DNA of 64,000 nt from Hyphomicrobiales bacterium. Its GTDB lineage: Bacteria; Pseudomonadota; Alphaproteobacteria; Rhizobiales; Rhizobiaceae. The number at the start of each line of letters is the position of its first letter. Within the stretch, counting starts at the first letter, position 1. Of this stretch, positions 1 through 18,450 are shown piece after piece. Under the pieces are notes generated by a model. It worked only from the letters and a program-made list of their open reading frames with translations. It made no database searches and was not told the DNA's origin. The DNA lies in the NCBI GenBank assembly GCA_900472175.1, contig UCHD01000004.1:774726-838725 (forward strand), written 5' to 3'. The position numbers and the translations under genes were made by a program.

Positions 1-822
1 CTTGCGAAACTTGCCGGTGAGGAGGTGATTGCCGAAGATCGCGATGTCAGTGCCCTTGCTCCGGTGATTATCCCCCGCCAGGTCGTGTTCGGAGGGTTTG
101 AAAGCCTCTTTGAAGTGGTTGAGGCGCTCGGGATCGGCGCCGATAAAGTCGAAGATCCGCTGCTCTGGGTCGGCCAGCGCGATCAGCGTGGTGCTCTTCC
201 CGATTGCCTCGACCGCGCGCCATTGCTCGGCGCTCGTGTCCTGGAATTCGTCAAGGATGATGAACGGGTACATAGTCGACACAAGCGCGCGGACCTTAGC
301 CGAGCCATGCAACAAGATCGCCACCCGCTCCGCGAACAGGTCGAAACAGACCTTGCCCTCGTCCGTCGCCAATCGCATGCGTTCGGCCACTTCCAGCGCG
401 GCCTTCTTCGCTTTCTCCTCGTCCGACAGCTTGGAGGGCGCCTTGAAGCCGCTCCGGATCGCCGACAGCGCGATCGCCTCGTTCGGCGGCGTCAGGATCG
501 TCATCCGCCGCGGAAACCCGACCAGATAGCCGTGCGCCTTGAGGATGCGCCAGAAGAAGGAGTGATAGGTGTCGACCTCGATCCGCTTCTTTTCCTCCTT
601 CGTAACCGACTCCTCTTCGTCGATCGCCTCGAACACGCGCGAGACTGTCGCGCGTGCGAAGCTGAGAAAAAGGATGCGCTGCCCCGGCTTCAGTTTTTCG
701 CACGCGATCTTCGCGGCCCTCAAGATCGACACAGTGGTCTTACCCGAGCCGGGACCACCCACAACGAGTTGGTGCCCCTCGACGGTTAGAACATCCTTTT
801 GCGCGTGCGTCAGATTGACCAT
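1..822 (-). CDS. UvrD/PcrA-like helicase, Gabija GajB-like (partial, C-terminus off the left edge)
   Basis: The minus strand is open from an ATG at 822 to base 1 (274 codons, no stop), so the gene continues outside the window. It starts MVNLTHAQKDVL and has a Walker A GGPGSGKTT near residue 23, a FLSFARATVSRV stretch like superfamily 1 motif Ia, a Walker B/DEXQ-type ILDEFQDTS with an EQW after it (motif II), and ADPEQRIFDF (motif III/Q-like). This is the N-terminal half of an SF1A DNA helicase. The start lies 8 bp after the stop of the OLD-family nuclease at 831-2669, so the two are probably co-transcribed. OLD nuclease plus UvrD-like helicase is the Gabija (GajA-GajB) arrangement; the assignment to Gabija is inference because the C-terminal half is not visible. 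Confidence 0.85.
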   Translation of the reverse strand, partial: MVNLTHAQKDVLTVEGHQLVVGGPGSGKTTVSILRAAKIACEKLKPGQRILFLSFARATVSRVFEAIDEEESVTKEEKKRIEVDTYHSFFWRILKAHGYLVGFPRRMTILTPPNEAIALSAIRSGFKAPSKLSDEEKAKKAALEVAERMRLATDEGKVCFDLFAERVAILLHGSAKVRALVSTMYPFIILDEFQDTSAEQWRAVEAIGKSTTLIALADPEQRIFDFIGADPERLNHFKEAFKPSEHDLAGDNHRSKGTDIAIFGNHLLTGKFRK

Positions 823-830
823 CGCGTCCT

Positions 831-2669
831 CTAACCGGCGGGCGCGGCGGCGGCTTCCCCACCGTTGCTGAACGAAGGCACGGGCGGCGCGGCGGGAGCA
901 GGCGGGGGATCACAGATCGCCTTCAGCGTTGTGCAGGCATCGCGGATCCAGGTCGGGATTTCGGCCTCGGAGCACTGGCCAAGGAAATCGGCGATGCCCC
1001 AATTGCCCTTTGCCCAGCCGAAATACTCTTTCAGCGCCGGGATCACATTGGCCTTCGGATCGGGATATTTCACGAGGATATGCGGCGGCCAGTCGAGCGC
1101 GTCTGAGAACCGCTCAAGCGCATCCTTCGTCGTATTCTTGAGGATGAGATCTTCGATCCCCTTCTCATCGTGCATGAATAGCCGCTCGACCTGGGCTTCG
1201 ATCGCGGCCTTCGCCGGATCGGTCTGCTTGTCGCAAAGCCCGAACGTTCGCTTACCGAGACCCTTATACAGCCCGGCGAGATCGGCGATCTGGGACTCGG
1301 TGCCCGCATCAATGATGCAGATGCCGAGCGCCTCAAGCGAGGCATAGGTGACGGGGTTTAGCTCCGACAGCCGGCGTGCGGCCACCGGAAAGGAGCTGGC
1401 CTCGGTGGCTCCTTCGGCGATCAGCACGCGACGGGACAGGAGGCCCTCGCAGAAGCGCGTGCGAAACTCCTGCCGATAGCGCTTGTGCTTTACGCTGTCG
1501 GGCAAAGCTATCTGCGCCTGGCTGAGCACACCGTCATTGGCCCGCGACAGGATCACGGTCTCGTCGAGCTTAAATTCCTCGAGGACGTATGGCGAATGCG
1601 ATGTGACGATTGACTGGGAGGCCAGCTTGCGCAGCTCATGCACGATCCGCTTCTGGGCATATGGCGGGATCGCGGTTTCGACCTCTTCCATGGCGAAGAT
1701 GACGTTCTGCTTGTCTTCGGCGATCTGCGACAGCATCGCCAGGACCAACATGTTGATCGTGCCGGTGCCTTGCCGGAAGAAGGGCGCGGCGTGATCGCCG
1801 TCGCCGGTTGCGATGAAGGCGGTCACTACCTTGCGCAGATGCTCACGCGTGAGGTTCGACACCTTAAGGTGCGGCTTCATACCCCATTCGCGCGGCACAT
1901 ATTTCTTCAGCGACTTGTCGATGCTGTCGAGCACGCCAGAAATCCCGATCGCGGGGTCGCTTGCCACATCGAAGGCGGCGAGCGTGCCGATCGTGCCTTC
2001 CCACATCTGCGGCCGAATTTCCTTCAGCCGCAGAATAATGTCGAGCAGGCTGCCATGCTCTAGGCTCAGCGCACGCGACCCAGTGCGTAGTGAGCGCAGG
2101 AACAGGAAGCCGCAATGCTGTTTGTCCTTCTTGGAGAACGGCTCGGGCTTGTCCGCCTCCGTCAGGCTGCGCGAATAGTAGGTGCTGCCGACGAAATCGT
2201 CTTCATCGGAATCGTAGCCGCCGATGAAGGTGACGCGCAGCGCCGCCTTGATGTTCGCGGCATCGACACCCGCCGGGTTGGCCTCGGTGAAGAAATCGCC
2301 GGTTTCGACATTGAGCCACTCGATATTGCCGCCGAACCTGGCCTCCTGCTCTTCCGACAGGTCGATGATGGTGACTACAACGGTGATCTTCGGGGCTCCG
2401 GCGACGGCCGTCTCGTAAGCGTCATCGGGCACGGCGCCCTCGTCGGCGGCGGCAGCGGCCACGGGAAGATATTTGCCCTCAAAAAAATCATGCTCATCGA
2501 CCGGAGGGCGGCGGCTCAGTCTATCAGGACCGAGCGCAAGATCTATCGCTTCAAGGACCGAGGACTTGCCCGTGTTGTTGTCGCCGATGAGGACAGCATG
2601 GTCGGGCAGCACAAGCTTCGCATAACTGATGCCCCGGAAATTCTCGATCGATACGTCGTAAATCTTCAA
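831..2669 (-). CDS. OLD-family ATPase/TOPRIM endonuclease, Gabija GajA-like
   Basis: A 612-residue protein with an N-terminal ABC-type ATPase and a C-terminal TOPRIM domain. The Walker A GDNNTGKSS is at residues 29-37. A Walker B region (VIFAMEEVE) and an H-loop SHSPYVLEEF follow in the middle of the protein. TOPRIM elements are VLIAEGATE, then IIDAGTE and FGLCDKQ, which provide the Glu and Asp residues expected for metal binding. The length is close to known GajA proteins (slightly under 600 residues). The C-terminal 25 residues are a low-complexity Pro/Ala tail. In Gabija, GajA is a sequence-preferring DNA-nicking enzyme controlled by nucleotides, working with GajB against phage. The helicase at 1-822 follows directly. 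Class 2 OLD nucleases in general also pair with UvrD-like helicases, so Gabija is likely but not proven. Confidence 0.85.
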   Translation of the reverse strand: MKIYDVSIENFRGISYAKLVLPDHAVLIGDNNTGKSSVLEAIDLALGPDRLSRRPPVDEHDFFEGKYLPVAAAAADEGAVPDDAYETAVAGAPKITVVVTIIDLSEEQEARFGGNIEWLNVETGDFFTEANPAGVDAANIKAALRVTFIGGYDSDEDDFVGSTYYSRSLTEADKPEPFSKKDKQHCGFLFLRSLRTGSRALSLEHGSLLDIILRLKEIRPQMWEGTIGTLAAFDVASDPAIGISGVLDSIDKSLKKYVPREWGMKPHLKVSNLTREHLRKVVTAFIATGDGDHAAPFFRQGTGTINMLVLAMLSQIAEDKQNVIFAMEEVETAIPPYAQKRIVHELRKLASQSIVTSHSPYVLEEFKLDETVILSRANDGVLSQAQIALPDSVKHKRYRQEFRTRFCEGLLSRRVLIAEGATEASSFPVAARRLSELNPVTYASLEALGICIIDAGTESQIADLAGLYKGLGKRTFGLCDKQTDPAKAAIEAQVERLFMHDEKGIEDLILKNTTKDALERFSDALDWPPHILVKYPDPKANVIPALKEYFGWAKGNWGIADFLGQCSEAEIPTWIRDACTTLKAICDPPPAPAAPPVPSFSNGGEAAAAPAG

Positions 2670-2846
2670 CGCAGCCCCCTGACGCGATGCCGTTTTCTCG
2701 TTTTACATGCGTCACAGTTACACCTGGTTTCGATGGAACGTCACCCGCCGTGTCAGTGGCGGCGGTTTCTCAAAGCGACCATTTCAGTTCGGCAATGAAG
2801 TCACTCATCGAAGTCATTGGTGGTCTCCGCTAGTTTCAAAGCGGCC

Positions 2847-2993
2847 TCAATGGCAATGCACCTCTCCGGTGCTCCGATCCATGTGGCAGCATTTTCCAGG
2901 CGGCGAACTTTTCCGGCATCCGCCTCCATGTGCCAGAGCAGCATCTTGTGCAGTCAAGCCCAGCAGAGCGAATATGCAAACTACGATTCTCAT
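2847..2993 (-). CDS. small secreted YHYH-like Cys/His-rich protein
   Basis: A 48-residue protein with a signal peptide of about 21 residues ending ...AALA, then a mature part of about 27 residues rich in Gly, Cys and His (HGGGCRKSS, GKCCHMDR, GEVHCH). The CCHxDRxTGxxHCH arrangement resembles the small YHYH-type domains common in secreted proteins. The ATG at 2993 is preceded by a strong GGGGAGGGGG ribosome binding site, which decides this start over longer readings. The Cys and His residues suggest metal binding or disulphides; this is inference. It is too short for automatic gene finders and is easily missed. Confidence 0.6.
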   Translation of the reverse strand: MRIVVCIFALLGLTAQDAALAHGGGCRKSSPPGKCCHMDRSTGEVHCH

Positions 2994-3269
2994 GCGGCTA
3001 CCCCCTCCCCAAATTTGCATGGCCGCAACCGGGAGTCTAGCTGGGGAGCTGGATTCATGGATGTTTCGTAAAGTTCGTAGTTCCTTGGCAAAAATTGCTA
3101 CCTCAACGATTAATTGCCGGTGGACTTCAAAACACCTGAGTGCTTCATTCGCGGATGGGGGAAGACTTGCACGGCTCACGAATTTCGTCATCGGATGCAT
3201 CCGGTCTCGCCGGCTGCGACAACATTCGAACCCGCTGGTGACCCTTTGAGTTCGTGAAGGATCTGCCAG

Positions 3270-4937
3270 ATGCCATTTTACATTCGGAAGTCGATATCTG
3301 CAGGGCCGTTTCGCTTCAACTTTTCGAAAGGTGGAGTCGGGGTCTCGGTAGGCATCCGCGGCCTTCGGATCGGAACAGGCCCTCGAGGGCACTACATCCA
3401 TGCAGGCATGGGCGGGTTATATTATAGGGCGTCGCTTGGCGTCGCCGGGAAGCCGATCGAGACAGCGCACGCCCTTCCAAAACAGCCGACTGTAATTCAC
3501 TCCGACGACGTCTGCATGATTGAAGTCGACTCCGGCGACGTCATGCTCATGCGTGATGAACCCTTCAAAGACTTGCTGGACGAAATCAACTTGAAGAGCC
3601 GGCAAGTCCGGATGGCGCATGCGCTAGCTTGGTCCCTAGGGGGTGTTGGGATTGTGGCCGGCTTGTTAACCGGGGGACCCGGCATTTTACTGACAGCACT
3701 CGCCGTCCCAGGCTGGATGATCGGTAACTGGCTAGACTCCTACCGTCGCAGTACGGTTCTTTACTATGATCTGGAGGGCGATGCCGAAGCAGCCTACAAG
3801 CAAATCGCCGAGGGATTTGACGGCCTTACCCAATGCGTTGGGAAATGGCATATCGAGGCGGGTGGCGCAATCACCTCCCTCACCGCATGGAAACGCAATG
3901 CCGGAGCATCTCATCTCGTCAACAAAAAACCGACTACGCTCAGCTATTCGCTTCCTCTGGTGATTAAAAGTAATGTGACCCCTCCGGCCATCAGTGTCGG
4001 CAGGCAAATCATGTATTTCATGCCAGACGTCGTCCTCGTGCAAGATGGCAGCAGGGTCGGGGCTGTCAACTATCGTGATCTGAACATTCGATGGCAGGAT
4101 TCACGCTTTATCGAAGACGGCAATGTCCCCAGTGACGCAAGGGTCGTCGGGCATACATGGAAGCATCCTAACAAGAGCGGAGGTCCTGATCGCCGTTTCA
4201 ATCACAACCGTCAGATTCCAATCTGCCTCTATGAAACTATCCACTTCCAAAGCGGCAACGGCGTCAATGAACTGGTTGAGTTTTCTCGAACCGGTCGGGC
4301 GGAGAGTTTCGCTAGAGGTTGTACGCTCGCAGGTCAACTACCGAGAGAAAGGGCCGCCGCCCCGCAGTCACTCCCCATTCAGACCTTGCCCAGGAGCGAA
4401 CCGCAGGCGCCGCCTCCAAAAAAGCACATCCGGCTCCGAACCGTCTTTCTATCCGCGCTCGCGCTGGTCATAGGTTTCTCTTTGGTCGTTGACCTTTCTA
4501 GGAAGAGCCTAGATCGGCCGGCTGCCAGCACCCCAACAGAGCTAAAGGTCATTGAATCATCGGACACCAAGGGTGCGCCGCAGCACATTCAACCCAGTGG
4601 ACCGAATGAGTTGCCAATCAGCAAGTTGATCGACAACAAACCTACGCCGACCGCAAAAGCGGAAATCGCCACGCCAGATACCACCTTGGATCGACCTGAA
4701 GCCAACGATCAACTGAAAACCACTGTACTGGAGGCGCTCGTCCCGCAAGCGGGCTGGTACACTGCCACCAACGTCAATCTTCGGGATGGTCCGGGAACGA
4801 AACATCCAGTGCTTCTGGTCATTCCCAATGGGTCGCCAATCAAATTGATCGAGCAGCGAGCGGGCTGGAGCCGCGTTCAAATCGAGGATGGCCGAACTGG
4901 CTGGATGACGAGCAAAGCAGTCGTGGCTGGTGACTGA
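3270..4937 (+). CDS. DUF4236 membrane protein with C-terminal SH3b domain
   Basis: A 555-residue protein. Residues 1-55 are a clear DUF4236 domain (RKSISAGPFRFNFSKGGVG, then RGLRIGTGPRGHYIHAG). Hydrophobic segments near 120-155 give one or two membrane helices. A further helix lies near 395-415 (FLSALALVIGFSLVVDL), followed by a Pro/Ser/Thr-rich linker and a C-terminal bacterial SH3 domain (about 495-550: NVNLRDGPGTKHPVL, LIEQRAGWSRVQ, GRTGWMTSK). DUF4236 proteins occur widely in accessory regions and their function is not known; SH3b domains usually bind peptidoglycan. The C-terminal part is probably periplasmic (inference). It precedes a secreted nuclease and the four-gene ZorAB-like operon on the same strand. 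Confidence 0.8.
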   Translation: MPFYIRKSISAGPFRFNFSKGGVGVSVGIRGLRIGTGPRGHYIHAGMGGLYYRASLGVAGKPIETAHALPKQPTVIHSDDVCMIEVDSGDVMLMRDEPFKDLLDEINLKSRQVRMAHALAWSLGGVGIVAGLLTGGPGILLTALAVPGWMIGNWLDSYRRSTVLYYDLEGDAEAAYKQIAEGFDGLTQCVGKWHIEAGGAITSLTAWKRNAGASHLVNKKPTTLSYSLPLVIKSNVTPPAISVGRQIMYFMPDVVLVQDGSRVGAVNYRDLNIRWQDSRFIEDGNVPSDARVVGHTWKHPNKSGGPDRRFNHNRQIPICLYETIHFQSGNGVNELVEFSRTGRAESFARGCTLAGQLPRERAAAPQSLPIQTLPRSEPQAPPPKKHIRLRTVFLSALALVIGFSLVVDLSRKSLDRPAASTPTELKVIESSDTKGAPQHIQPSGPNELPISKLIDNKPTPTAKAEIATPDTTLDRPEANDQLKTTVLEALVPQAGWYTATNVNLRDGPGTKHPVLLVIPNGSPIKLIEQRAGWSRVQIEDGRTGWMTSKAVVAGD

Positions 4938-5141
4938 CGCTCCTCGCTTGAAACGAGGAACAGTAGGGCCACCTGCGTTGCTTCTCCAACTCCGTGAGCA
5001 CCAATTGACTATCCGCCCGCCAGGTCGCCAAAGCTCCCCGTGCCCGCGAACCAAATCTACGAGAATATCGCTCTGAAATTGTTTATCTTGTTGAGATTGC
5101 AACCAGCTTGCTCTAGCGTCCTCTTCGGGACGTTGGGGGCA

Positions 5142-5810
5142 ATGTTGAAGATTTTGATGCTATGCGCGGCAATGGCGTTGTCGCAGTCGATCCATGCAGT
5201 CGCGGGATCGCCGGTTCACGTTGTCGATGGAGACACCTTGGACGTCGGCGGGCTCCGCTACCGTCTGCATGGAATTGATGCGCCGGAAGCCGCGCAGGTG
5301 TGTGCCGCCCGAGATGGCCGTACTTGGAACTGCGGGCAGGATGCCATTCGCCGAATGGAAGAAATCACCGGCGGAAAATCAGTCGAATGCGATGACCGAG
5401 GCCACGACGCATACGGTCGAACGATTGCTGTCTGCACTGCGGCCGGCGTCGAAATTAATGCGCTGATGATTGAACAAGGGATGGCGTGGGCATTTCGCAA
5501 ATATTCGCAAGACTATGTCAAAGCCGAAGACGCGGCCCGCAGTCGGGGCGTCGGCATCTGGCAGGCCCCCACCGAGACGGCTTGGGATTTCAGAGCGCAC
5601 AAATGGGAATCGTCGCTCTCCGCCGTCCCTGATCGCGCCTGCCCCATAAAGGGAAACATCAACCGCAAACACGAGCAAATCTACCATGTCCCCTGGTCCA
5701 AAGACTACGGAAAGACAAGAATCGATGTGGCAAAGGGCGAGAGATGGTTCTGCACCGAAGAAGAAGCCGTTGCGGCCGGCTGGCGAGCTCCACTATGGGG
5801 TCACGAATGA
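5142..5810 (+). CDS. exported staphylococcal-nuclease-like (thermonuclease) protein
   Basis: A 222-residue protein with an N-terminal signal peptide (MLKILMLCAAMALSQSIHA) and an SNase domain: HVVDGDTLDVGG, YRLHGIDAPEAAQ (catalytic Arg and Asp region), YGRTIAV, and GMAWAFRKY. Such enzymes cut DNA and RNA with Ca2+. A C-terminal extension has Cys residues and a WFCTEEEAVAAGWR segment, as in other proteobacterial exported SNase proteins with an Ada-like or nuclease-associated tail. The start at 5142 was chosen because it gives a proper signal peptide; upstream in-frame starts do not. The gene ends 53 bp before the four-gene operon at 5864 and could be transcribed with it. Confidence 0.85.
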   Translation: MLKILMLCAAMALSQSIHAVAGSPVHVVDGDTLDVGGLRYRLHGIDAPEAAQVCAARDGRTWNCGQDAIRRMEEITGGKSVECDDRGHDAYGRTIAVCTAAGVEINALMIEQGMAWAFRKYSQDYVKAEDAARSRGVGIWQAPTETAWDFRAHKWESSLSAVPDRACPIKGNINRKHEQIYHVPWSKDYGKTRIDVAKGERWFCTEEEAVAAGWRAPLWGHE

Positions 5811-5863: not shown

Positions 5864-7315
5864 ATGGCCAAACCCTTCGAAGCACTGAACCGCCTCATCG
5901 ACAGCGTTCGTGAATCAAACCACGATTTCCGGATCACCACGGACCCTTTTCCTCCACTTGACGCTGAGAAGCTCGCGAAGACGATGGAGCTCGCCAAAAA
6001 GGGCGCCGAAAACGGAGCTGAGGAAAAGCCGGCGTCATCTGCCCAGGCTCTCGACGAAGTTGAAAAAACTGTAGCCAGCCGCGTGGAGACCGAACGCGAC
6101 GATTCCTATCAGGTTCTTGAGGATCAGCTTCATACGTACGCCACGCGCATGCAGAACCTGGATTTCAATGGTCATTTCGGAAGGATTCGTCAGGCCAACA
6201 TTTCGAGCCTAACTGACTTTAGAGGCGAAGTTGCCGGCGGGCGAGATGAGCTGTTCGGGCTACGTCGTAGCCTTAAAGAGGCTGATGAGGAACTGACGGA
6301 ATTTAGGAAAGACAATCGCCTTAAACGGGTCGCCCAGACCAAATCTGAAATGGCGACAATCATAAAATGGATTGTGGTGCTGGCGCTGCTGGTGGGCGAG
6401 ACAGTCGTCAACGGCATTTACCTGGCCCAAGGCAGTGATCAAGGGCTTGTGGGCGGTGTCGGTTTGGCGTTCGGATTCGCAATCGCGAACGTCTGCGGAA
6501 CCGTTCTTTTGGCTTGGGTTCTCATCCCCAACATCGTTCATCGTGCACTGTTTCGTAAGCTGGTTGGACTGATTGGAATAGCCGCATGGCTCTGCCTTGC
6601 CCTCGGCCTAAATCTGGCTATGGCTCATTACCGCGAAGCGTCAGCAGATACGGCGTCTCAAATTGGCACTGCAGTAATGACCCGTCTCAAGACTGATCCG
6701 CTGTTCCTGAAGGACATTGATTCATGGATCCTGTTTGCGACCGGCTTCATGTTCTCCGCAATCGCGCTGTTCGACGTCCTCAGCATTCGAGACATTTATC
6801 CTGGCTACGGCGGAGTCCATACGCGATACGTCAAGGCGCGGCAAAACTACGTCGATCACAAAATGGAGCTGATCGAAGAGTTGAAGGAAATCCGTGACGA
6901 CCACAACACAAAGGTCGAAACAATCATCCGAGACCTCGCTATCCGTCGCCGCGAATGTGCGTCGATCATTGAAAGCCGCGCCCGAATCGTCCGCTTGTTC
7001 AATGAACAACAGGATCGTCTCGAGACCTGTGCTAGAAAGCTGCTCACCATCTATCGTGAGGCTAATCGACAGTCCAGGACCAAGACGGCGCCGAAATACT
7101 TCGCACAGCAATTCGTCCTCGACCGGAGAAAACCAATTGTCGACACCAGCGACGATTGGAACGACAAGGAGTTAGCAGCACAAATAAAGGGGGCTGAAAG
7201 CGAACTCGCGGGGCAGATGCAGCAAATCGGACAAGAGTTCGAGAGTGCCGTCGTCGCCTATCATCAGCTCGACGATCTGTTCTCGGAGAATATAAATGGC
7301 CAGAAGGCGGCGTAA
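5864..7315 (+). CDS. four-helix membrane protein with flanking coiled coils (ZorAB-like operon, gene 1)
   Basis: I do not recognise the family. The 483-residue protein has a charged, Ala/Glu-rich N-terminal region (1-160) with coiled-coil character, then four predicted membrane helices at about 165-187, 194-221, 233-254 and 287-305. A long C-terminal cytoplasmic coiled coil (about 320-483) is rich in Glu, Arg and Gln. The second gene begins inside its last codons (20-bp overlap), so the four genes to 10698 form one translationally coupled operon. It may be a scaffold or regulatory membrane subunit of the motor-like pair encoded downstream; that is inference from context only. Confidence 0.75.
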   Translation: MAKPFEALNRLIDSVRESNHDFRITTDPFPPLDAEKLAKTMELAKKGAENGAEEKPASSAQALDEVEKTVASRVETERDDSYQVLEDQLHTYATRMQNLDFNGHFGRIRQANISSLTDFRGEVAGGRDELFGLRRSLKEADEELTEFRKDNRLKRVAQTKSEMATIIKWIVVLALLVGETVVNGIYLAQGSDQGLVGGVGLAFGFAIANVCGTVLLAWVLIPNIVHRALFRKLVGLIGIAAWLCLALGLNLAMAHYREASADTASQIGTAVMTRLKTDPLFLKDIDSWILFATGFMFSAIALFDVLSIRDIYPGYGGVHTRYVKARQNYVDHKMELIEELKEIRDDHNTKVETIIRDLAIRRRECASIIESRARIVRLFNEQQDRLETCARKLLTIYREANRQSRTKTAPKYFAQQFVLDRRKPIVDTSDDWNDKELAAQIKGAESELAGQMQQIGQEFESAVVAYHQLDDLFSENINGQKAA

Positions 7316-8111
7316 AAAACAGAGCGACGTCTCGGCCGGTGGTCTGATGGGAGCAGTTTTGCTGGTTCTTATCATAATGGGAGCGGTGGCCGGTTACTTC
7401 TATCTGCGCGAGAAATCGAAGCAATTTCCGCCTTTGGACGCAGAATATTGCCCGACGACGGGCCCGACTTCCGTCACCGCTGTTCTCCTAGATACGACAG
7501 ACCCGATCGCAGACATCACCAAGGTGGATTTGAAGCGACAATTTCAAAAGTCGGTTGCGGATGTCGAAAGGGGTGGCCTGATCGAGGTCTATGCCCTCAC
7601 CGACCGCGAAGGCGCCCTCACCCGCACCTATCGAGGATGCAATCCAGGCGACGGCGCCGACGCCGACGAGCTGGTATCGAACCGCAAACGGATCCAAAAG
7701 CGCTGGGAGGACGGCTTCAACAAACCTCTGCAGGATATCGGTGAGCAGCTTGGCGAAGGCTCCGAGGGTAACCAATCGCCGATCATGGCAGGCATTCAGC
7801 GCATCGTGGTGGAAAGCTTTTCCGACGCCAAACTCGAAGACAGGTCGAAGACCCTTATCGTCGCCTCGGACATGGTCGAGCACACTGCGGCCTTCTCCAT
7901 CTACAAGTCCGGCACGGACTATGCCGCCTTCGAGAAAAGCAGCGCAAGCGACAAGTTCAGAAGTCCGCTTGATGGCGTCGGCGTCAAGGTGTTCGCCTTT
8001 CAGAGAGAGAACACCAAGCTCCTGAAAGAGCTCCCTGATTTCTGGCTCAAATGGGTGACCGCGAATGGTGGTGAATGGATCGGTTACGAGCGATTGGTGG
8101 GAGTAGAATAA
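7296..8111 (+). CDS. membrane-anchored protein with a possible vWA-like fold (ZorAB-like operon, gene 2)
   Basis: A 271-residue protein with a very basic start (MARRRRKKQ), one membrane helix at about 16-37, and an exported globular domain. The domain begins with a hydrophobic strand ending in DTTDP (LLDTTDP, residues 64-70), reminiscent of the first part of a degenerate MIDAS motif. A later hydrophobic strand LIVASDM (187-193) resembles the second metal-binding strand of von Willebrand A domains. The fold call is tentative. The start overlaps gene 1 by 20 bp, and the stop overlaps the next start (TAATG at 8109-8113). A partner that senses or binds in the periplasm would fit this layout (inference). 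Confidence 0.7.
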   Translation: MARRRRKKQSDVSAGGLMGAVLLVLIIMGAVAGYFYLREKSKQFPPLDAEYCPTTGPTSVTAVLLDTTDPIADITKVDLKRQFQKSVADVERGGLIEVYALTDREGALTRTYRGCNPGDGADADELVSNRKRIQKRWEDGFNKPLQDIGEQLGEGSEGNQSPIMAGIQRIVVESFSDAKLEDRSKTLIVASDMVEHTAAFSIYKSGTDYAAFEKSSASDKFRSPLDGVGVKVFAFQRENTKLLKELPDFWLKWVTANGGEWIGYERLVGVE

Positions 8112-9655
8112 TGGGTACCGGCATGGACATCAGACGCTCGATCCGGACCAATGGCCCCATCATGCTGTTCGCGTTGATGACGCTCGTCGGGTCAACCATC
8201 ATATGGTTTGGTAAGCTTTACGGCGTTGACACTGTCACCATCACGCTTATCCCACTCTGTATGATGGCGATCTACTTCGTAGTCTCGTTCTTTGCGGCGG
8301 GCCTAAGTCTTCACAACGAGCAGGCGGGCGATAACCTCTACTACATGGGCTTCCTGTTCACGCTGACCAGTCTCGGAGTATCCCTGTATCAGTTCACCGG
8401 GGAAGCGTCGATCGAAGACGTCGTCCGGAACTTCGGCGTTGCCATTTCATCGACCATCGCGGGGATTTCGCTCCGCATTCTCTTTAACCAGATGCGACGT
8501 GATCCGGTCGATATAGAAAAGGCGGTGCGGTACGACCTCGCTGAGATGACCCGACGTGTCCGAACTGAACTCGACACGTCCGCCATGGAGTTTTCGAGCT
8601 ATCGCCGTACCAGTCATCAGATGCTTGTCGAAGGATTTGAGGAGATTGCGCGCCAGGCGGAAAAGAGCGGCGAGGCCGTTCGCGCGTCAATCGAATCCAT
8701 GTCTCTGCAAGCGACGAAATCGATCCAAGAAGCGTCCGATAAACTCAGCTTGACGCTGGACAGCACGCACAAACAGATTAGCGAATACGCTGCTCGCAAT
8801 GCCGCCATGGTCGCTGAAATGAGCGAGCGTCTTCAAGGCTCGGTTTCTGCGATCGAGGAGAGAACTACCAAGCTGGGCGACGCAGTCGATGGCGTTATCC
8901 AGAAATTCAGAGATGCTCGATCGCCAGACGAGATTCTGAAGATCGAGGTCACGCCTGTCATCGAATCCTTGCAGGCCATCGTGACCGAACATGCCAAAGC
9001 GATCGACGGTAACGCCGCCGCAACGAAAGAGACCGTCAAGAGGATCCTTGCGGCCATCGCTCCGTTCAAGGCAACAAATACGACCCTCGGCGCCATCGCG
9101 ACAAAACTCGACGCCGCGACCTTGGCTTCTGAAAACTCGACCCAAACCATTGATGCTACGCTTCAGCGCTGGGAAGCCATCGCCGCTGCGACGGAAACGG
9201 GGAACATGGCTGCCTCCGGACTAATTGGCCATCTCCAGGAGAACCTTGCCGAAACAAAAGCGGCGACGGGCGCTCATTTGAAGAATGCCGAGAAGCTTTC
9301 CGAGGTGGTCTCATCACTCAAGACGAACACGACAAGCATGAAGTCGGTCGCAGACCGACTTGTCGATTTATCGTTGTCGACGACTGCACATGAGAGACGC
9401 CTGGAGAGCGCAACAGAGGTCATAGGACGTGCTGCCACGTCTGCGGAGAAGGCCAGCTCTGGCATCGAAGCGGCGGCGCGGCGCCTTTCCGAGGAACGTG
9501 CGCAGATCGTTCTTGCTCCGCTACCAAATCCGATCCCCGACGGCTCAGCGACCGTTCTACCAGCGATCGCGATTGCAGCGTCGGAGGGTGAAGGACCCAC
9601 GAACACCGGATCCGGCGACGACAAGCCGAGGAAAAGCGGCTGGTTCAATCGATGA
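8111..9655 (+). CDS. ZorA/MotA/ExbB-like membrane channel protein with long coiled-coil tail (gene 3)
   Basis: A 514-residue protein with four predicted helices near the N-terminus (about 14-34, 42-64, 76-94 and 105-124). The last, NFGVAISSTIAGISLRI, has the small-residue pattern of MotA/TolQ/ExbB proton channels. The remaining roughly 380 residues are almost wholly Ala/Glu/Lys/Thr-rich coiled coil, ending in a short basic tail. A MotA-like core with a long cytoplasmic tail, directly followed by a MotB/OmpA-like gene, is the layout of ZorA-ZorB of Zorya anti-phage systems. No ZorC, ZorD or ZorE is seen. The start at 8111 overlaps the preceding stop as TAATG; the stop overlaps the next start as ATGA. 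Confidence 0.75.
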   Translation: MGTGMDIRRSIRTNGPIMLFALMTLVGSTIIWFGKLYGVDTVTITLIPLCMMAIYFVVSFFAAGLSLHNEQAGDNLYYMGFLFTLTSLGVSLYQFTGEASIEDVVRNFGVAISSTIAGISLRILFNQMRRDPVDIEKAVRYDLAEMTRRVRTELDTSAMEFSSYRRTSHQMLVEGFEEIARQAEKSGEAVRASIESMSLQATKSIQEASDKLSLTLDSTHKQISEYAARNAAMVAEMSERLQGSVSAIEERTTKLGDAVDGVIQKFRDARSPDEILKIEVTPVIESLQAIVTEHAKAIDGNAAATKETVKRILAAIAPFKATNTTLGAIATKLDAATLASENSTQTIDATLQRWEAIAAATETGNMAASGLIGHLQENLAETKAATGAHLKNAEKLSEVVSSLKTNTTSMKSVADRLVDLSLSTTAHERRLESATEVIGRAATSAEKASSGIEAAARRLSEERAQIVLAPLPNPIPDGSATVLPAIAIAASEGEGPTNTGSGDDKPRKSGWFNR

Positions 9656-10698
9656 GCGCCGCCGACACTGCCACGAAAGTTGAGGCAAAGGGATATAACC
9701 GTGGCCTCATTCTCGGCTTCACCATGGCGGAGTCCATGCTTCTTCTGGTATTCTGCCTTCTTCTCGTGACCGGGGCGATTATCTCAAATGAGCGCCTTAA
9801 AGCAAGCAACGCGCTTAGAGAGGTAGCCGAGGTCAAGACCGCACTCGAGCAACGAAAGCGCGACAACCTGGAGCTTCAGGCCAAACTTGCGACGCAGCTC
9901 TCCTTGGTGGACAAGCGGAAGGCTGAGGAAGAGTGGCGGGAACTCGTGGTCGGTCGCGAGGTCGTCGAAGCATTAAGGAAGCAAGGCATTGACGCAGAGG
10001 ATCTCGACGAACTTGTGAAAAGCGTCGCACTGCTCCTTCAACGGTCTCTGGATGTCTCGGATCCCGTCGCTCTCCAGAAAAAAGTCGACGCCTTGCTGGC
10101 CGCCCAAGCCTCTCAGGACCGCGAACAGACACTCGAAGCAGCACTTGAATCTCTAACTAGACGCTTGTTAGAAAAAGAGGACGAGCTTTCGAAAGTTCAG
10201 CAGGCGTCGAAGCCGCACGAATGGCCTCCGATCATCAGTCTCAGCGAAGCGAGCGGGTACTTCTTCACATCGGGTAGCGCAGAACTGACCGAGAAGTTTA
10301 CCGCCGATCTCAGTGGTTCAATTTCCACTCAGATAGCAGAAAACTTGAAACGCTACGGCGTGGATATCGTGGAAGTCATTGGCCACACTGACGAGCAGCC
10401 GCTCTCCCGGTCCGGCTCAAACATGGACAAGCTTGCCATAGGCGTTGTGTCAGCGAACACCCCCATCGTAGATCTCGTGCCCGCGGACAATGCCGGACTG
10501 GGTCTGGCGCGTGCAATTTCAGTTGCCAGCGTGCTCCGTAACAATGAGGCCTTGGCAGGCATGACGATCCTTCCTTTATCTGCGGCCCAACTGATCATGC
10601 CCGGCGACAAACTCACAACCGGCCAATCTGGAAATGTCGAATCTCGGCGGCGGATCGAAATTAGGATTCGACGGAGGGATAACTCAGCGGTCCAATAG
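9652..10698 (+). CDS. ZorB/MotB-like protein with OmpA-type peptidoglycan-binding domain (gene 4)
   Basis: A 348-residue protein with one membrane helix (about 18-42), a long coiled coil (45-190) and a C-terminal OmpA/MotB domain (about 200-340). The OmpA signature is visible: VIEVIGHTDE around 239-248, then an N-x-x-L-x-x-x-R-A-x-x-V pattern at 280-291 (NAGLGLARAISV), and RRRIEIRI at 332-339. The helix carries Glu27 (MAESMLLLVF) where MotB and ZorB usually have the proton-carrying Asp. The start overlaps the ZorA-like gene by 4 bp (ATGA). It probably anchors the complex to the cell wall as a stator (inference by family). This is the last gene of the operon. Confidence 0.82.
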   Translation: MSAADTATKVEAKGYNRGLILGFTMAESMLLLVFCLLLVTGAIISNERLKASNALREVAEVKTALEQRKRDNLELQAKLATQLSLVDKRKAEEEWRELVVGREVVEALRKQGIDAEDLDELVKSVALLLQRSLDVSDPVALQKKVDALLAAQASQDREQTLEAALESLTRRLLEKEDELSKVQQASKPHEWPPIISLSEASGYFFTSGSAELTEKFTADLSGSISTQIAENLKRYGVDIVEVIGHTDEQPLSRSGSNMDKLAIGVVSANTPIVDLVPADNAGLGLARAISVASVLRNNEALAGMTILPLSAAQLIMPGDKLTTGQSGNVESRRRIEIRIRRRDNSAVQ

Positions 10699-11017
10699 GA
10701 CACCTCAGAAGTCAGTGAATCGCTGCCCCTACCATGCCACCGCCGTGCTCTTCTAAAGAAACGCCACCTTTGACTTTGCTGCAGAATGTCATGACCTGCG
10801 CCTCAATGTTGACGATTCTCACTGCCGCTTTACGACTTTGATGCTTCGATCATGATCGCGGTCTTTCTGTTCATCAGCGAATCTCGCATAGACGCCACAC
10901 GTCTAATCGCTGGGCCACGATCGCAGACATCGTTGGAACCTGGCTTTCACACGCGAGCTACAAAGGTCTGCGGCACGATCACGACGACATCGAAATATTT
11001 TCCGTCAACGATCAGGG
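10699..11017. other. intergenic stretch with no gene recognised
   Basis: This is the convergent space between the ZorB-like gene and the small gene at 11018-11233. No convincing coding frame, RNA gene or clear T-tailed hairpin was seen. Confidence 0.5.
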
Positions 11018-11233
11018 CTAATCCGCCGATGGCCAATCGTTTGCCGGTTCCTCGATAGCGGGCGTCTCGTCGTCTGCTGGATTGGGATCACGCTCGTACA
11101 CCGCACGAAGGATTGTGACCTCCTCGACGATCGCGTCGAGCACCTCTTCCGGTTTGGCGCCTTCCTCGACAAACCGAGAGACGAAATCCTCCACTTTCAG
11201 TCGAAAGCCATCTTTCCATTCAACGTCGCTCAT
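11018..11233 (-). CDS. small acidic hypothetical protein downstream of xthA
   Basis: A 71-residue acidic protein (MSDVEWKDGFRLKVEDFV..., Glu/Asp-rich, ending EEPANDWPSAD). Its start overlaps the stop of xthA by 4 bp (ATGA), which supports it as a real, translationally coupled gene. The predicted structure is mostly helical. I do not recognise a family. It is the last gene of the imuA-imuB-dnaE2-xthA direction of transcription and may belong to the same DNA-repair unit (inference). Confidence 0.6.
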   Translation of the reverse strand: MSDVEWKDGFRLKVEDFVSRFVEEGAKPEEVLDAIVEEVTILRAVYERDPNPADDETPAIEEPANDWPSAD

Positions 11234-12036
11234 TTCTTTTTCCGCGGTTTCTTCGTTTTGTCGGTCAGTTCAATCCAAACCGGAGCGTGGTCGCTGGTAT
11301 GCTCCCAGCCGCGGACGTACTTGTCGACCTGCGCCGTGGCAAGCCGCGACGCCGCCTCCGGGCTGAGAAGGAAATGATCGATTCTCAAACCAGCGTCACG
11401 GGCAAAGGCATTCCGAAAATACTTCCAGAACGTGTAGATACGCTCATTGGGATGGAGCTTGCGGAGCGCATCCGTCCAGCCCTGGTTCACGAGATTGGCA
11501 TAGGCCTCACGCACTTCAATGCGGAACAGGGCATCATCGAGCCAGCGTTCCGGCTTGTAGACGTCAAGTTTGGTGGGCATGACGTTGTAATCCCCGACTA
11601 GAATGACCGGTACTTCCAGCTCAAGCAACTCGGCGGCATAGTCATGAAGTCGTTGAAACCAGCGAAGCTTGTAGTCGAACTTTGGCCCAGGATACGGGTT
11701 ACCGTTCGGGAGATAGAGGCCACCGATCACCATGCCATCGACAACCGCTTCGATATAGCGGCTCTGGGTATCGTCCGGGTCGCCGGGAAGACCCCTTCTC
11801 GTGAGGCGCGGTTCCTGCCCTTTGGTCAGGATCGCCACCCCGTTCCATGATTTCTGCCCTGTCCAGACCGCGCCGTATCCTGCGGCTTCGATCGCCCTGA
11901 TCGGGAACTTCTCTTGGGGTGCCTTCAATTCTTGTAGGCAGACGACGTCGGGCGACGCCTCTTCCAACCACCTGAGGAGCACATCGAGGCGGCCGTTGAT
12001 GCCGTTGACGTTGTAGGTCGCGACTTTCAATTGCAA
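11230..12036 (-). CDS. xthA: exodeoxyribonuclease III (AP endonuclease)
   Basis: A 268-residue member of the Mg2+-dependent endonuclease/exonuclease/phosphatase family. Visible motifs are YNVNGI (start), CLQELK with the metal-binding Glu, GLYLPNG with the catalytic Tyr, VGDYNVMP, RIDHFLLS and the terminal TSDHAPVW with the catalytic Asp-His pair. The enzyme cuts at abasic sites and degrades DNA from 3' ends in base excision repair. It lies 66 bp downstream of dnaE2 on the same strand, so it may be read through from the SOS cassette. Most bacteria also have a core copy, so this could be an accessory paralogue. Confidence 0.93.
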   Translation of the reverse strand: MQLKVATYNVNGINGRLDVLLRWLEEASPDVVCLQELKAPQEKFPIRAIEAAGYGAVWTGQKSWNGVAILTKGQEPRLTRRGLPGDPDDTQSRYIEAVVDGMVIGGLYLPNGNPYPGPKFDYKLRWFQRLHDYAAELLELEVPVILVGDYNVMPTKLDVYKPERWLDDALFRIEVREAYANLVNQGWTDALRKLHPNERIYTFWKYFRNAFARDAGLRIDHFLLSPEAASRLATAQVDKYVRGWEHTSDHAPVWIELTDKTKKPRKKK

Positions 12037-12102
12037 TCCTCGAGCTGGCCCGACTAGCTATGTCGGGAGGGTACCGCCGCCATTAACTAGCGCCGACTTT
12101 AC

Positions 12103-15100
12103 TCATTGGAAGTTGCGCGCCTTCACCTTGAGCGTGTCGATATGCAGATCTCGCACGAAAATGTCTCGTGGCTGAACGGCCGGCCTCGGTCGATCACGCG
12201 AGTCCCCGCCCCCAGCCGATCCATGGGCGAATTCATCTCCCCTGCCCGAGGTCAGCTTGAACGCCGCATCCATGTCCGCCAGATTGGACAGATCGCCCGA
12301 GAGGTCGAATAGTTGCTGGGCTACAAGATGCACGACATCCCCTTCGCGTTGAATGCGGCCGTTGATCGCCATCATGCTGGCCCCCAGGACGACACGGCGG
12401 CGCTTTTCAAACAATGACGGCCAGACCACGACGTTAGCCGGACCCGTTTCGTCTTCAATCGTGATGAACATCACCCCCTTTGCGCTGCCGGGCTTCTGGC
12501 GGACGAGCACCAACCCCGCCGTATAGACCCACCGCCCGTCACGAGCGGACATCGCCTCGTCGCAGGTGACCATGCTCCGTCGTCTGAGGTCTTCTCGTAG
12601 GAAGGCGATCGGGTGATCGCGTAGCGTCAGCCCGATATGGCCATAGTCTTCGACGACGTTATGGCCTTCGGTCATTTGGCGTAGAAGCACGTCTGGTTCC
12701 TGCTGTTCGGCAATCGTTTTCTCTTCTCGCTCTGCGGCTGCAGCGAATAACGGCAAAGGTTCGTCGCGTAGCGCTTTGATCGCCCAAAGCGCGTCGCGAC
12801 GCTCCTGACCCAGCGACGGCAGGAAGGCGTCAGCTTCAGCAAGTTGGACAAGCGAAGCGGCGGGAACTCCGGATCGACGCCACACGTCGTCGACTGAATC
12901 GAATTCGCCATTCATGCGGGCGGCGACGATCCGCGCGACGTCCGCGGTGGCAAGGCCTCTTACGAGACGCATGCCCAGGCGTACAGCGTGGCGACCCGTA
13001 TTGCCAATCTCCTCAAGGGTGCAGTCCCATCGCGAACGATTGACGCAAACGGGTCGAATTACCACGCCGTGTTTGGCGGCGTCGCCGACGATCTGTGCCG
13101 GTGCGTAGAACCCCATCGGCTGGCTGTTAAGGAGTGCCGCGCAGAACACGTCCGGATGATGACATTTCACGAAGTTCGAAGCATAAGCAATCAAAGCGAA
13201 CGAGGCCGCATGGCTTTCGGGAAACCCGTATGACCCGAACCCTTCGAGCTGGCTAAACGTCTTCTCGGCGAACTCCGCTGTGTACCCATTTCGGACCATG
13301 CCGGACACCAGCTTGTCCTTGAACCTTGAGACGCCGCCTGTGAACTTGAACGTCGCCATGCTCTTTCGTAGCTGATCGGCCTCGCCTCCTGTGAAACCAG
13401 CGCAAACCATCGCCACTCGCATTGCCGATTCTTGAAACAGGGGAACGCCGAGTGTCTTTCCAAGCACAGCTTCCAGCTCCGGCGTCGGATACTCCACCGC
13501 CTCTTTGCCCTCGCGTCGCCGAAGATACGGATGAACCATGTCGCCCTGGATCGGTCCAGGGCGGACAATCGCGACCTGCACGACGAGATCGTAGAATGTG
13601 CGCGGCTTCAGGCGGGGTAGCATGGCCATCTGCGCCCGACTTTCGATCTGAAAAGTTCCGAGCGTGTCAGCTTTGCGGATCATCGCATAGGTCGCGGCAT
13701 CCTCCTGGCGAATGGTAGCAAGGTTCATGCTGTCGTCGTTCTTATGCTCGCGGATGAGGTTGAAAGCCTTGGCCATGCAGGTCAGCATGCCGAGCGCGAG
13801 CACGTCGACCTTCATCATTTTGAGGGCTTCGACGTCATCTTTGTCCCACTCGATGATCTGTCGATCGGCCATGGCCGCCGGCTCGATCGGCACGAGATCG
13901 TCCAGGCGGTCGTGGGTCAGCACGAAACCGCCGGGGTGCTGACCGAGGTGGCGAGGTGCCCCCATGAGCTGCTGCGCCAGCTTGAGCGTCAGGACAAGCC
14001 GGCGATCGTCGGGATTGAGGTTCAGCTCCCGGACGTTGCGGTCGCTGACTTCTTCGGACCACGACCACATGCCGGACGAAAGCGCCTTGATCAAGTCTTC
14101 AGGCAGGCCGAGCGCCTTGCCTACGTCGCGGATGGCGCCCTTTGCGCGATACCGAGTCACGGTCGCACAGAGAGCGGCCTTTTCCTTGCCGTAGGTCTTG
14201 TAAATCCATTGAATGACCTCTTCCCGCCGCTCATGCTCGAAATCGACGTCGATGTCTGGCGGCTCATCGCGCTCTTGGCTGACGAACCGTTCGAACAAGA
14301 GATCGTTGGTCGAGGGATCAATAGACGTGACGCCGAGCATGTAGCAGACGGCACTGTTTGCAGCCGACCCGCGCCCCTGACAAAGGATTCCCTGTGATCG
14401 AGCGAACCGGACGATGCTGAACACCGTCAGAAAATACGGCGCATACTTCATTGTTCGAATGAGATCGAGTTCGTGTCGCACCGTCTTCAGAACGTCAGTC
14501 GGCAGACCTTCCGGATAGCGGTCGGGCACGCATTCCCAAACATACTGTTCGAGTGACTCCTGCGGTGTCTTTCCAGGGATGATGGCTTCCTCAGGATACT
14601 GGTACGTCAGCTCTTCTAGCGAGAATTTGCAGCGCTCTACGATTTCCAGCGTTCGTCGCAGCGCCTCCGGATAGCGAGGGAAAAGCCGCTCCATTTCCTC
14701 GGGAGGCTTGAGATACCGGTCCGCATGGCGTTCGCGTTCGAATCCCACCTCGTAGATCGTCGTGCAGTTCCGAATACAGGTGACAACGTCCTGTAGCTGC
14801 CTGCGGCCGGGTTCATGAAACAACACATCGTTGGTGACGACCGTCCTCACTCTCAAGCGCGTCGCCATGTTCGAAAGCTCATGAAGCCGAAGCTGGTCAT
14901 TTGGGCGGCGTCGCAGCGACAAGGCGACATAGGCACGGTCGTTGAAGACCTCGGCCAATTTGCGCATCTGGACGCCGCATGTCTCATCGGGGAGGTCTGG
15001 TACCAGCACGGCAAGCATGCCCTCGGAAAAAAGAATGACGTCGTCGAGATGGAGAATGCAGTTATTCTTCCCTCCCCGGCTCTTCCCCAAGGTGATCAAT

Positions 15101-17765: not shown

Positions 17766-18029
17766 ATGAGTGGACTGCTGACTTTGAGAGACTTCCGAGC
17801 ACAGGTGATCACGGTTGAATGCCGAGCATGTGACATGAGCACCGAACTCGACCGCTCAGTACTCGTCAAACGATACGGCGCAAGCACGAGGTTCGTGGAA
17901 TTGCGCCGTCGCCTTGCGATCGGTTGCGAAAAAGTGATCTGCGCGGACGGCGCAGATAGGTGCGAGACAAGATTTCCCTGTCTGCTCCGGGCCGACCTGT
18001 ATTTCGAAGGGAGCAAGTCCGATGCGTGA
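17766..18029 (+). CDS. small Cys-containing protein, divergent from imuA
   Basis: An 87-residue protein with several cysteines: VECRACDM (CxxC), CEKVICADGADRC and CLL. The spacing suggests a small zinc-ribbon-like fold, but the family is not recognised. A GGAG ribosome binding site lies a few bases before the ATG. The next gene starts 8 bp inside its 3' end, and the SRAP gene start follows, so the three form a short operon facing away from imuA. The link to DNA damage is only by context. Confidence 0.6.
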   Translation: MSGLLTLRDFRAQVITVECRACDMSTELDRSVLVKRYGASTRFVELRRRLAIGCEKVICADGADRCETRFPCLLRADLYFEGSKSDA

Positions 18030-18366
18030 AATAACGGAAACATCAACGCTGTCTGTGGACAATGCATCCAATGGTGCGGTTATTTTCGGGAAGACACCGG
18101 ATGAGAGTCGGCAAGCCGCGCATGGTGCCCGTCTCGATTTCTACAGACAGGAGCGCGACCTCGTCCGGAGTTATGTCGAAGCACTCGACGCCGACGTCGT
18201 CGTCATTACGTCAGCCGAAGGCGGTGCCGACACCACGTTTGGTTTATCCCATCTGACCAGTGTTCTGCTCAACTACGAAACCCTTATGTCTGAACGGATC
18301 GGCGACTTGCAGGTTGAATTGAAGATCGTGGATGGTTCCGTCTCGAGCTGTGATGAACAGGACTGA
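18022..18366 (+). CDS. hypothetical protein between the Cys-rich gene and SRAP
   Basis: A 114-residue acidic protein with no recognised domain (ARLDFYRQERDLVRSYVEALDADVVVI...). A GGGAG site lies before the ATG at 18022. It overlaps the upstream gene by 8 bp and ends 2 bp before the original ATG of the SRAP gene (18369), which supports it as a real operon member. The spacing to SRAP is seen only after mentally removing the insertion sequence. Confidence 0.55.
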   Translation: MREITETSTLSVDNASNGAVIFGKTPDESRQAAHGARLDFYRQERDLVRSYVEALDADVVVITSAEGGADTTFGLSHLTSVLLNYETLMSERIGDLQVELKIVDGSVSSCDEQD

Positions 18367-18378
18367 GTATGTGTTGGT

Positions 18379-18389
18379 GTGGACGGCTC
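18379..18389 (+). repeat. left subterminal inverted repeat of the IS110-family element
   Basis: GTGGACGGCTC, perfectly complementary over 11 bp to the right repeat at 19743-19753. Confidence 0.85.
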
Positions 18390-18450
18390 TGAGACCTCGG
18401 AGTTCCGTGGCATAATAGCCATGGAGATACGAGCGAGAGGAGCGCTTACG

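Follow-up and report, generated by a model that had tools for sequence, protein, structure and literature searches.

A conserved four-gene membrane module with a ZorB-related subunit and a linked secreted nuclease

What might a motor-like membrane operon do that resembles the Zorya defence systems in one subunit and carries a different set of partners? The question is raised by four overlapping genes at positions 5,864 to 10,698 of a 64,000-nucleotide stretch of contig UCHD01000004.1 (assembly GCA_900472175.1) from a Hyphomicrobiales bacterium. The whole stretch is hereafter the window, the genes are g1 to g4, and together they are the module. An earlier note, made from the letters of the window alone, had read them as a Zorya-related or new envelope motor. 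We found that the module is a conserved unit, that g4 is related to ZorB of type II Zorya, and that a gene for a secreted nuclease accompanies the module at many loci and is fused to g4 in some genomes.

The four-gene unit and the nuclease beside it

The genes in question, all on the + strand of the window, are as follows.

5142..5810, +: staphylococcal-nuclease-like DNase, 222 aa from the ATG at 5142, with a C-terminal 'sunset' domain
5864..7315, +: g1, 483 aa, membrane protein with four membrane-length helices between long helices
7296..8111, +: g2, 271 aa, one N-terminal membrane helix (residues 14-42) followed by a predicted von Willebrand factor type A (vWA) domain
8111..9655, +: g3, 514 aa, probable MotA/ExbB/ZorA-like subunit with a tail of about 380 residues
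9652..10698, +: g4, 348 aa, ZorB/MotB-like subunit, a membrane helix followed by an OmpA-type domain

We took the start of g3 as 8111 and that of the nuclease as the ATG at 5142; the list of open reading frames (ORFs) places them at 8075 and at a GTG at 5040, respectively. The four ORFs and their junctions stand as the earlier note had given them, with a 20-bp overlap between g1 and g2, a 1-bp overlap (TAATG) between g2 and g3, and a 4-bp overlap (ATGA) between g3 and g4. The note had proposed counting how often the four occur together, and they do so as a unit: 61 of 72 loci carry g1-g2-g3-g4 in identical order on a single strand. This total includes Mesorhizobium loci that are nearly identical and three loci that occur twice; it excludes L003-L005, which are short but also show all four genes. 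The arrangement is not due to chance, because relatives keep all four genes in order. The 11 incomplete loci comprise nine cut-outs of about 4 kb (L021-L029), one contig of 5.2 kb (L075), and L034, where a shortened g1 stands alone within 21 kb; four of the cut-outs proved complete once longer DNA was considered (L170, L174, L179, and L180). With start codons chosen by script, junctions of at most 30 bp were found between g2 and g3 in 61 of 61 loci, between g3 and g4 in 60, and between g1 and g2 in 56. The four genes and the upstream nuclease gene are under strong constraint, with nonsynonymous differences (pN) of 0.10-0.20 and synonymous differences (pS) of 0.71-0.78 relative to the closest relative, L012.

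The span that the earlier note had assigned to the operon is right for the four ORFs and omits a likely fifth component, a nuclease gene whose end lies 53 bp upstream of g1. Its product matched PF00565 (E-value 1.4e-15) and the NCBIfam sunset domain (1.9e-11), and a Sec-type signal peptide was recognised by eye. Among 42 nuclease matches (a set that includes duplicates and the later-dropped L063), 36 had, ahead of the domain, a run of 11 residues whose hydropathy averages 2.0 or more, a property of signal peptides and anchors. The active site is intact: R35, D40, E43, and R87, which we take to be the catalytic residues by the numbering of the Staphylococcus enzyme, were kept in 28 of 28 aligned homologues, two sequences being cut off before the first Asp, and a stricter text pattern for the site matched 22 of the 42.

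A comparison of 755 ORFs around 63 loci gave one widely recurring neighbour cluster, the staphylococcal nuclease (SNase)-like gene, at 35 loci before dereplication. Dereplication at 90% identity reduced 58 loci to 44 clusters, 34 of which have at least 3 kb on both sides; of these 34, 19 have a nuclease homologue no more than 3 kb away from the module. The count is 19 and not 20 because the SNase candidate at L063 (3.6e-7) was not confirmed by Pfam and was dropped; a looser count, 25 of 39, includes L063 and loci retained only through a nuclease on a short flank. Pfam was used to check the window, L067, L070, and the fused proteins described below, and the other nucleases were identified using phmmer with the window nuclease; L040 and L019 have no nuclease match of their own, though they lie inside clusters counted positive. 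The SNase family has about 236 matches in 121 genomes of the order (about 1.95 per genome), so that about 0.3% of sites would be expected to have an SNase within 3 kb, and the excess has a P of about 6.5e-39 if the draws are taken as independent; the loci share ancestry, however, and plasmids may not behave like chromosomes. The nuclease gene occupies four placements: upstream or downstream of the module, in each case on the same or on the opposite strand. On a tree of g1 and g2, this amounts to at least 12 changes of arrangement if absence is counted as a state, and to 5 among the placements alone (an earlier count of 13 had included L063).

In two genomes the two genes are joined. A Rhodobacteraceae contig from a metagenome-assembled genome (MAG; L071) and genome G444 (L170) encode g4 and the SNase in a single frame of 488 and 589 residues, respectively, with the nuclease at the C-terminus (Pfam SNase, 4.6e-9 and 2.3e-13). 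In genomes G281 (L174) and G1068 (L175), the C-terminus of g4 carries another kind of nuclease, GmrSD_C (2.3e-11 and 3.8e-12, above the Pfam cut-off). These four belong to a branch of twelve modules (L007, L008, L071-L073, L076, L077, L170-L172, L174, and L175), in which the G-coded genomes were placed by family code, and G281 and G444 also by g1 similarity; in L072, g2 is split across two ORFs. Two unrelated nucleases at one terminus of g4 speak more strongly than any other finding for DNA cleavage on the outer face of the membrane as the output of the module. The likely effector is the secreted SNase-type nuclease, which is likelier in that role than the two membrane proteins that, in the earlier note, had simply replaced the usual effectors.

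The motor-like pair and its membrane partners

The periplasmic part of g4 carries the link to Zorya. An OmpA-type domain spans approximately residues 200-345 (the window protein matched OmpA at 7.7e-5, below the Pfam cut-off), and in the membrane helix T24, A26, and E27 were invariant in 39 aligned rows. When this 39-row alignment was compared using hhalign with five ZorB2 proteins, the match extended over the periplasmic domain with a probability of 98.4 (E 8e-15). The reference ZorA2 and ZorB2 proteins came from five loci that were found with the ZorB2 model, below the cut-off of that model, and PADLOC names ZorA2, ZorB2, or ZorE2 in four of the five, the four that were scanned. The PADLOC ZorB2 model also matched the periplasmic domain of g4 in six of six Rhodobacterales-branch proteins (1.4e-27 to 1.3e-24). 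The NCBIfam ZorB2 model matched g4 of L174 at 7e-23, with 81.9 bits against a curated cut-off of 400, which the reference Zorya II loci likewise do not reach. By profile, the periplasmic domain of g4 is clearly related to ZorB of type II Zorya.

For g3, the kinship is more distant. Hydrophobic segments lie within the first ~130 residues, as judged by eye, and the tail of about 380 residues varies in length between relatives and gave weak matches chiefly to coiled-coil-like families and to ZorA tails. No family match above cut-off was obtained from Pfam, PADLOC, or NCBIfam. MotA_ExbB (PF01618) was the Pfam family matched by the most members of the alignment (8 of 36 at E ≤ 1, best 4.1e-4; 4 of 36 for the runner-up), and the matches listed cover the last two helices with 11.3, 16.9, and 19.8 bits against a cut-off of 22.9. 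In the 36 aligned rows T84 and T115 were invariant. The g3 membrane domain aligned with ZorA2 of the five genomes over 98 columns (hhalign P 0.0015), in a register that matches up the Thr conserved in the penultimate helix and the Ser/Thr position of the final one. The score of 26.3 was higher than those of 60 of 60 column shuffles (maximum 18.1) and that of the reversed alignment (10.8); against the same ZorA2 set, the membrane part of g1 scored 18.4, TolQ 22.0, and a MotA-like family 54.5. ZorA2 models matched g3 of the Rhodobacterales branch over a region that starts near the last helix and runs on into the tail (3e-7 at best, in L073), and such matches are inflated by coiled-coil tails. 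A remote kinship of g3 with ZorA2 is probable at the profile level and not proven. A search for NCBIfam ZorA_4 at 1e-20 matched 0 of 219 genomes, the controls being unmatched as well. Sequence matches of g3 in the PDB, mainly to long-helix proteins such as apolipoproteins and to ZorA in the tail (0.018), were taken as effects of composition.

The other two proteins would be partners specific to the module. The AlphaFold model of g1 (mean predicted local distance difference test score, pLDDT, 84.7; predicted template modelling score, pTM, 0.57) has membrane-length helices at residues 162-188, 194-219, 229-262, and 285-308, flanked on both sides by long helices. PADLOC matched nothing, Pfam and NCBIfam nothing near a cut-off, and a Foldseek search of the model against the PDB returned nothing at E ≤ 0.001; g1 could thus be assigned to no known family or fold. 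For g2, Pfam, PADLOC, and NCBIfam gave no usable family, and no PADLOC model matched. Its AlphaFold model (mean pLDDT 88.8) places a helix at residues 14-42 before a vWA fold, and the top Foldseek matches were vWA/I-domain proteins (probability 0.99-1.00 among the matches listed), so that g2 is, as modelled, a one-helix protein with a Rossmann-type alpha/beta fold of vWA topology. The domain is probably periplasmic because a positively charged N-terminus precedes the helix. Positions D66, D69, S161, and D192, as well as C52 and C115, were invariant in 39 aligned rows of g2. The canonical metal-ion-dependent adhesion site (MIDAS) motif is DxSxS...T...D, and it is not present in g2, whose first metal-site motif reads D-x-[ST]-D. 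Weak PDB sequence matches of g2 (best 0.077; ricin chains 1.1 and worse) were taken as chance.

These results uphold what the earlier note had seen in g1, a four-helix membrane protein, and its suspicion of a vWA-like domain in g2, and they divide its reading of the other two genes. The long tail of g3 is real, and the MotA/ExbB-like assignment stays below cut-off. The profile-profile comparison that the note had called for showed no homology of g3 with TolQ or the MotA-like family and a weak one with ZorA2. As for a Zorya-related pair, the relation is clear at the profile level for g4 and suggestive for g3, from both hhalign and the ZorB2/ZorA2 models.

Second motor-like pairs were seen as well. 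On contig C24 of the same genome as the window (L081), a MotA-like gene (1189-2292) is followed by an OmpA-like gene (2292-3323); 27 of 41 genomes of the class have a match to the MotA-like protein, whose profile aligned with ZorA2 with an hhalign probability of 93.6 (2.1e-7). At L188 (1-3764) and L189 (7675-10403), a second ZorAB-like pair was recognised by eye beside Zorya II genes.

A working model and its alternatives

The reading that we favour, and consider moderately probable, is an ion-driven envelope motor, related to Zorya II, with a nuclease that works in the periplasm. In such a motor, g3, its tail in the cytoplasm, would be the pentamer-type subunit and g4 the dimer-type one, supplying the membrane carboxylate and an OmpA-type, peptidoglycan-binding domain, with g1 and g2 as module-specific partners. 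The complex may sense a disturbed envelope or peptidoglycan, likely through the vWA domain of g2 and the OmpA domain of g4, and ion flow would then turn or open the motor. The effector, the SNase-type nuclease, which in some genomes is fused to the periplasmic end of g4 or swapped there for GmrSD_C, would be brought to, or released at, the breach and cut DNA before it reaches the cytoplasm. By analogy with ZorE of Zorya II, a breach might license the motor and the nuclease might be concentrated on the periplasmic side. An unspecific nuclease should be safe there, because host DNA should be absent from the periplasm. Given a likely DNA-cutting partner outside the inner membrane, foreign DNA may be destroyed on its way into the cell, and incoming DNA, from phages or plasmids, is probably the target.

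A fuller version, whose chance we put a little short of even, is a Zorya turned outward: a periplasm-facing immune motor that is anchored to peptidoglycan, detects DNA injection, delivers a nuclease, distinguishes self from non-self by compartment, and carries its nuclease end as a swappable cassette (SNase or GmrSD_C). If so, immunity of this kind would tell foreign DNA from self by where it is. ZorE, the known effector of Zorya II, works within the cell; a nuclease held covalently on the periplasmic end of a ZorB-like subunit would offer a direct handle on which side of such a motor the work is done.

Several observations weigh against a Zorya-type motor with a nuclease effector. For g4, the window protein matched a PADLOC Zorya model, ZorB1, at just 1.9e-4, the membrane helix alone did not match ZorB2 (hhalign probability 0.4%), and the membrane acid is Glu, compared with Asp in Zorya. 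In the divergent loci L067, L069, L070, and L074, the membrane part of g4 is kept and the OmpA domain is exchanged for another C-terminal domain, which has a conserved CW stretch and no Pfam match; g4 of L070 had no ZorB2 match at 1e-5 and no plasmid relative by tblastn. The link between g3 and ZorA is remote (hhalign probability 16%, and 12% for the last two helices alone), and g3 as a relative of TolQ or of the widespread alphaproteobacterial MotA-like family reached a probability of only 2-3%, which does not show homology with either. The unit is not always whole: in G223 (L178), longer DNA contained g1-g2 with no g3-g4 recognised beside them (a g4 search of its family at 1e-25 matched 0 of 105 genomes), and in L177 (G858) g3-g4 are present and g1-g2 were not found, so the module may be split into two halves. 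As for the nuclease, 15 of the 34 dereplicated loci have no confirmed homologue within 3 kb, just four fusions were seen, all within one branch, and secreted SNase-type genes can serve other roles. Finally, most annotated neighbourhoods among those listed contain metabolic or plasmid genes and are no defence islands.

Secreted nucleases are often nutritional, and in the Ton system paired subunits of this kind energise uptake. The module could accordingly be a scavenging machine for nutrients or DNA, its nuclease trimming environmental or periplasmic nucleic acid and its motor energising handling or import. This is unlikely. Besides SH3 proteins, the nuclease is the sole neighbour cluster around many unrelated loci, and none of the 28 largest neighbour clusters is a permease, an outer-membrane receptor, or TonB-like. 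The presence of the module is also very patchy for a nutritional trait, with 4 of 151 genomes of the family (searched with g3) and 10 of 398 of the phylum (searched with g1), the own genome being counted in both.

Equally doubtful is a role in general envelope mechanics, such as peptidoglycan or outer-membrane tethering with the vWA protein as force transducer, in which the nuclease would be a frequent but separate passenger. The OmpA-type domain of g4 and the recurrence of SH3 proteins nearby speak for it, and passages of PMC12204202 describe vWA force transducers encoded beside TolQ-like motors, resembling g2 as a one-helix vWA protein beside a motor-type pair. From those transducers, g2 differs in showing neither the SHLS motif nor an acid inside the helix (12-row alignment, by eye), and the described part of that work names no nuclease partner. 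Passengers would leave unexplained why two unrelated nucleases sit on the same g4 end and why the nuclease gene is kept in four placements.

An exclusion system, in which conjugated DNA is degraded and the resident plasmid is thereby protected against competitors, seems more unlikely still. It would agree with the 24 plasmid records that carry the module, 11 of them typed as conjugative, and with a relaxase gene, traA, in the stretches fetched for L016 and L017. Conjugation passes single strands through a channel, however, and may bypass the periplasm. The module also occurs on contigs of up to 1.8 Mb and in the one-contig genome G444, and so is not tied to small mobile plasmids.

Returning to the module itself, we found no description of it in the open-access PubMed Central literature (subscription papers lay outside the search). 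According to passages of PMC8565338 and PMC11890865, the partners of ZorAB in Zorya types I-III are ZorCD, ZorE, or ZorFG, and in type II, as parts of PMC11890865 describe, ZorAB recruits the ZorE nickase to the membrane upon infection. The module resembles Zorya II in g4 and, suggestively, in g3, in the combination of a short membrane domain with a long tail, in the OmpA-type domain, and in having a nuclease partner. It differs in its two extra membrane genes, g1 and the vWA gene g2, in a nuclease that is secreted or fused on the periplasmic side whereas ZorE is cytoplasmic, in the Glu of its membrane helix, and in a g4 that lies under the curated ZorB2 cut-off. No PADLOC match to ZorC-ZorG was obtained among the module proteins and the few neighbours scanned, the recurrent neighbour being the secreted nuclease. 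The module is Zorya-like in its proposed working and lies outside the defined types, in none of which it can be placed because the defining partner was not found. That it is an ordinary Zorya of type I, II, or III with diverged components is very improbable, since the ZorB2 similarity and the weak ZorA2 similarity are set against g1 and g2, which match no PADLOC model and whose own models found nothing in the five Zorya II loci, and against 81.9 of 400 bits for NCBIfam ZorB2, even if the reference loci miss that cut-off too.

Two further comparisons place the module among known machines. SNIPE (DUF4041; PD-Lambda-1 in PADLOC) is, in passages of PMC13190303, a membrane-anchored nuclease that cuts phage DNA during injection, and is thus similar in linking a nuclease to the inner membrane and to DNA at entry; as described there, it is a single protein whose nuclease domain is cytoplasmic. 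It has no motor subunits and belongs to a different nuclease family (GIY-YIG). MotAB, TolQR, and ExbBD share the architecture of the pair, with Thr/Ser residues conserved in the last two g3 helices and a carboxylate in the g4 helix. They differ in that g3 is not significantly matched by them and has a long tail, and no flagellar, Tol, or Ton gene was noticed in the contexts listed.

Distribution and genomic context

The distribution of the module is patchy. In a tblastn search of plasmids, g1 and g3 each matched 24 records and g4 matched 20; for g1 and g3 alike, the 24 come from Rhizobium (12), Paracoccus (6), Sinorhizobium (3), Microvirga (2), and Tistrella (1). Nodule bacteria that serve as laboratory strains carry the module on plasmids, for example on pRL11 of Rhizobium johnstonii 3841. 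A scan of bacterial contigs with the g1 alignment gave 48 loci, mostly Alphaproteobacteria by title, together with single MAG contigs labelled Flavobacteriaceae, Acidobacteria, and Latescibacterota that may be misbinned. The bearers are mostly soil and marine bacteria. Sinorhizobium and Rhizobium loci were placed in several positions in the tree, which is consistent with transfer. No match to the module was found in 50,697 phage records. One IMG/VR contig (L082) carries a portal-like gene, recognised by eye, at 44-1225 and a complete four-gene module at 9989-14715, possibly as prophage cargo.

Other features of interest in the window are listed below.

831-2669, -: GajA (PADLOC PDLC00086, 4.7e-265), the pair continuing to the left of the window
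From 909 of the window to 1001 bases left of it: UvrD-like ORF, recognised by eye, next after GajA and forming a Gabija-like pair with it
3270..4937, +: DUF4236 and SH3 protein, possible accessory (PF14020 4.6e-15, PF08239 3e-12)

The earlier note had called the operon probably defensive given the Gabija-like pair nearby. The pair is real, GajA by PADLOC and the UvrD-like gene by eye, and the inference from it is weak given the mostly metabolic or plasmid neighbourhoods. Elsewhere, Gabija lies near the module in L012 and a SNIPE-type gene in L011, and weaker matches to defence genes were found in L009 (a cyclase) and L057 (restriction-type); no enrichment in defence islands is claimed from these.

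The DUF4236 and SH3 cluster is present in the window and at 12 Mesorhizobium loci (13 in all), several of them near-identical; at the Mesorhizobium loci, a relative of the 3270..4937 protein directly follows g4. A second SH3 cluster lies beside the module in L010, L015, L033, L053, and L060. In L011 (Sinorhizobium fredii NXT3), the SNIPE-type gene (17995-19470, -; PD-Lambda-1, 5.8e-170) directly adjoins the nuclease of the module, and about 9 kb upstream two hypothetical genes and an OmpA-family gene (1-3316) possibly form a second motor-like set.

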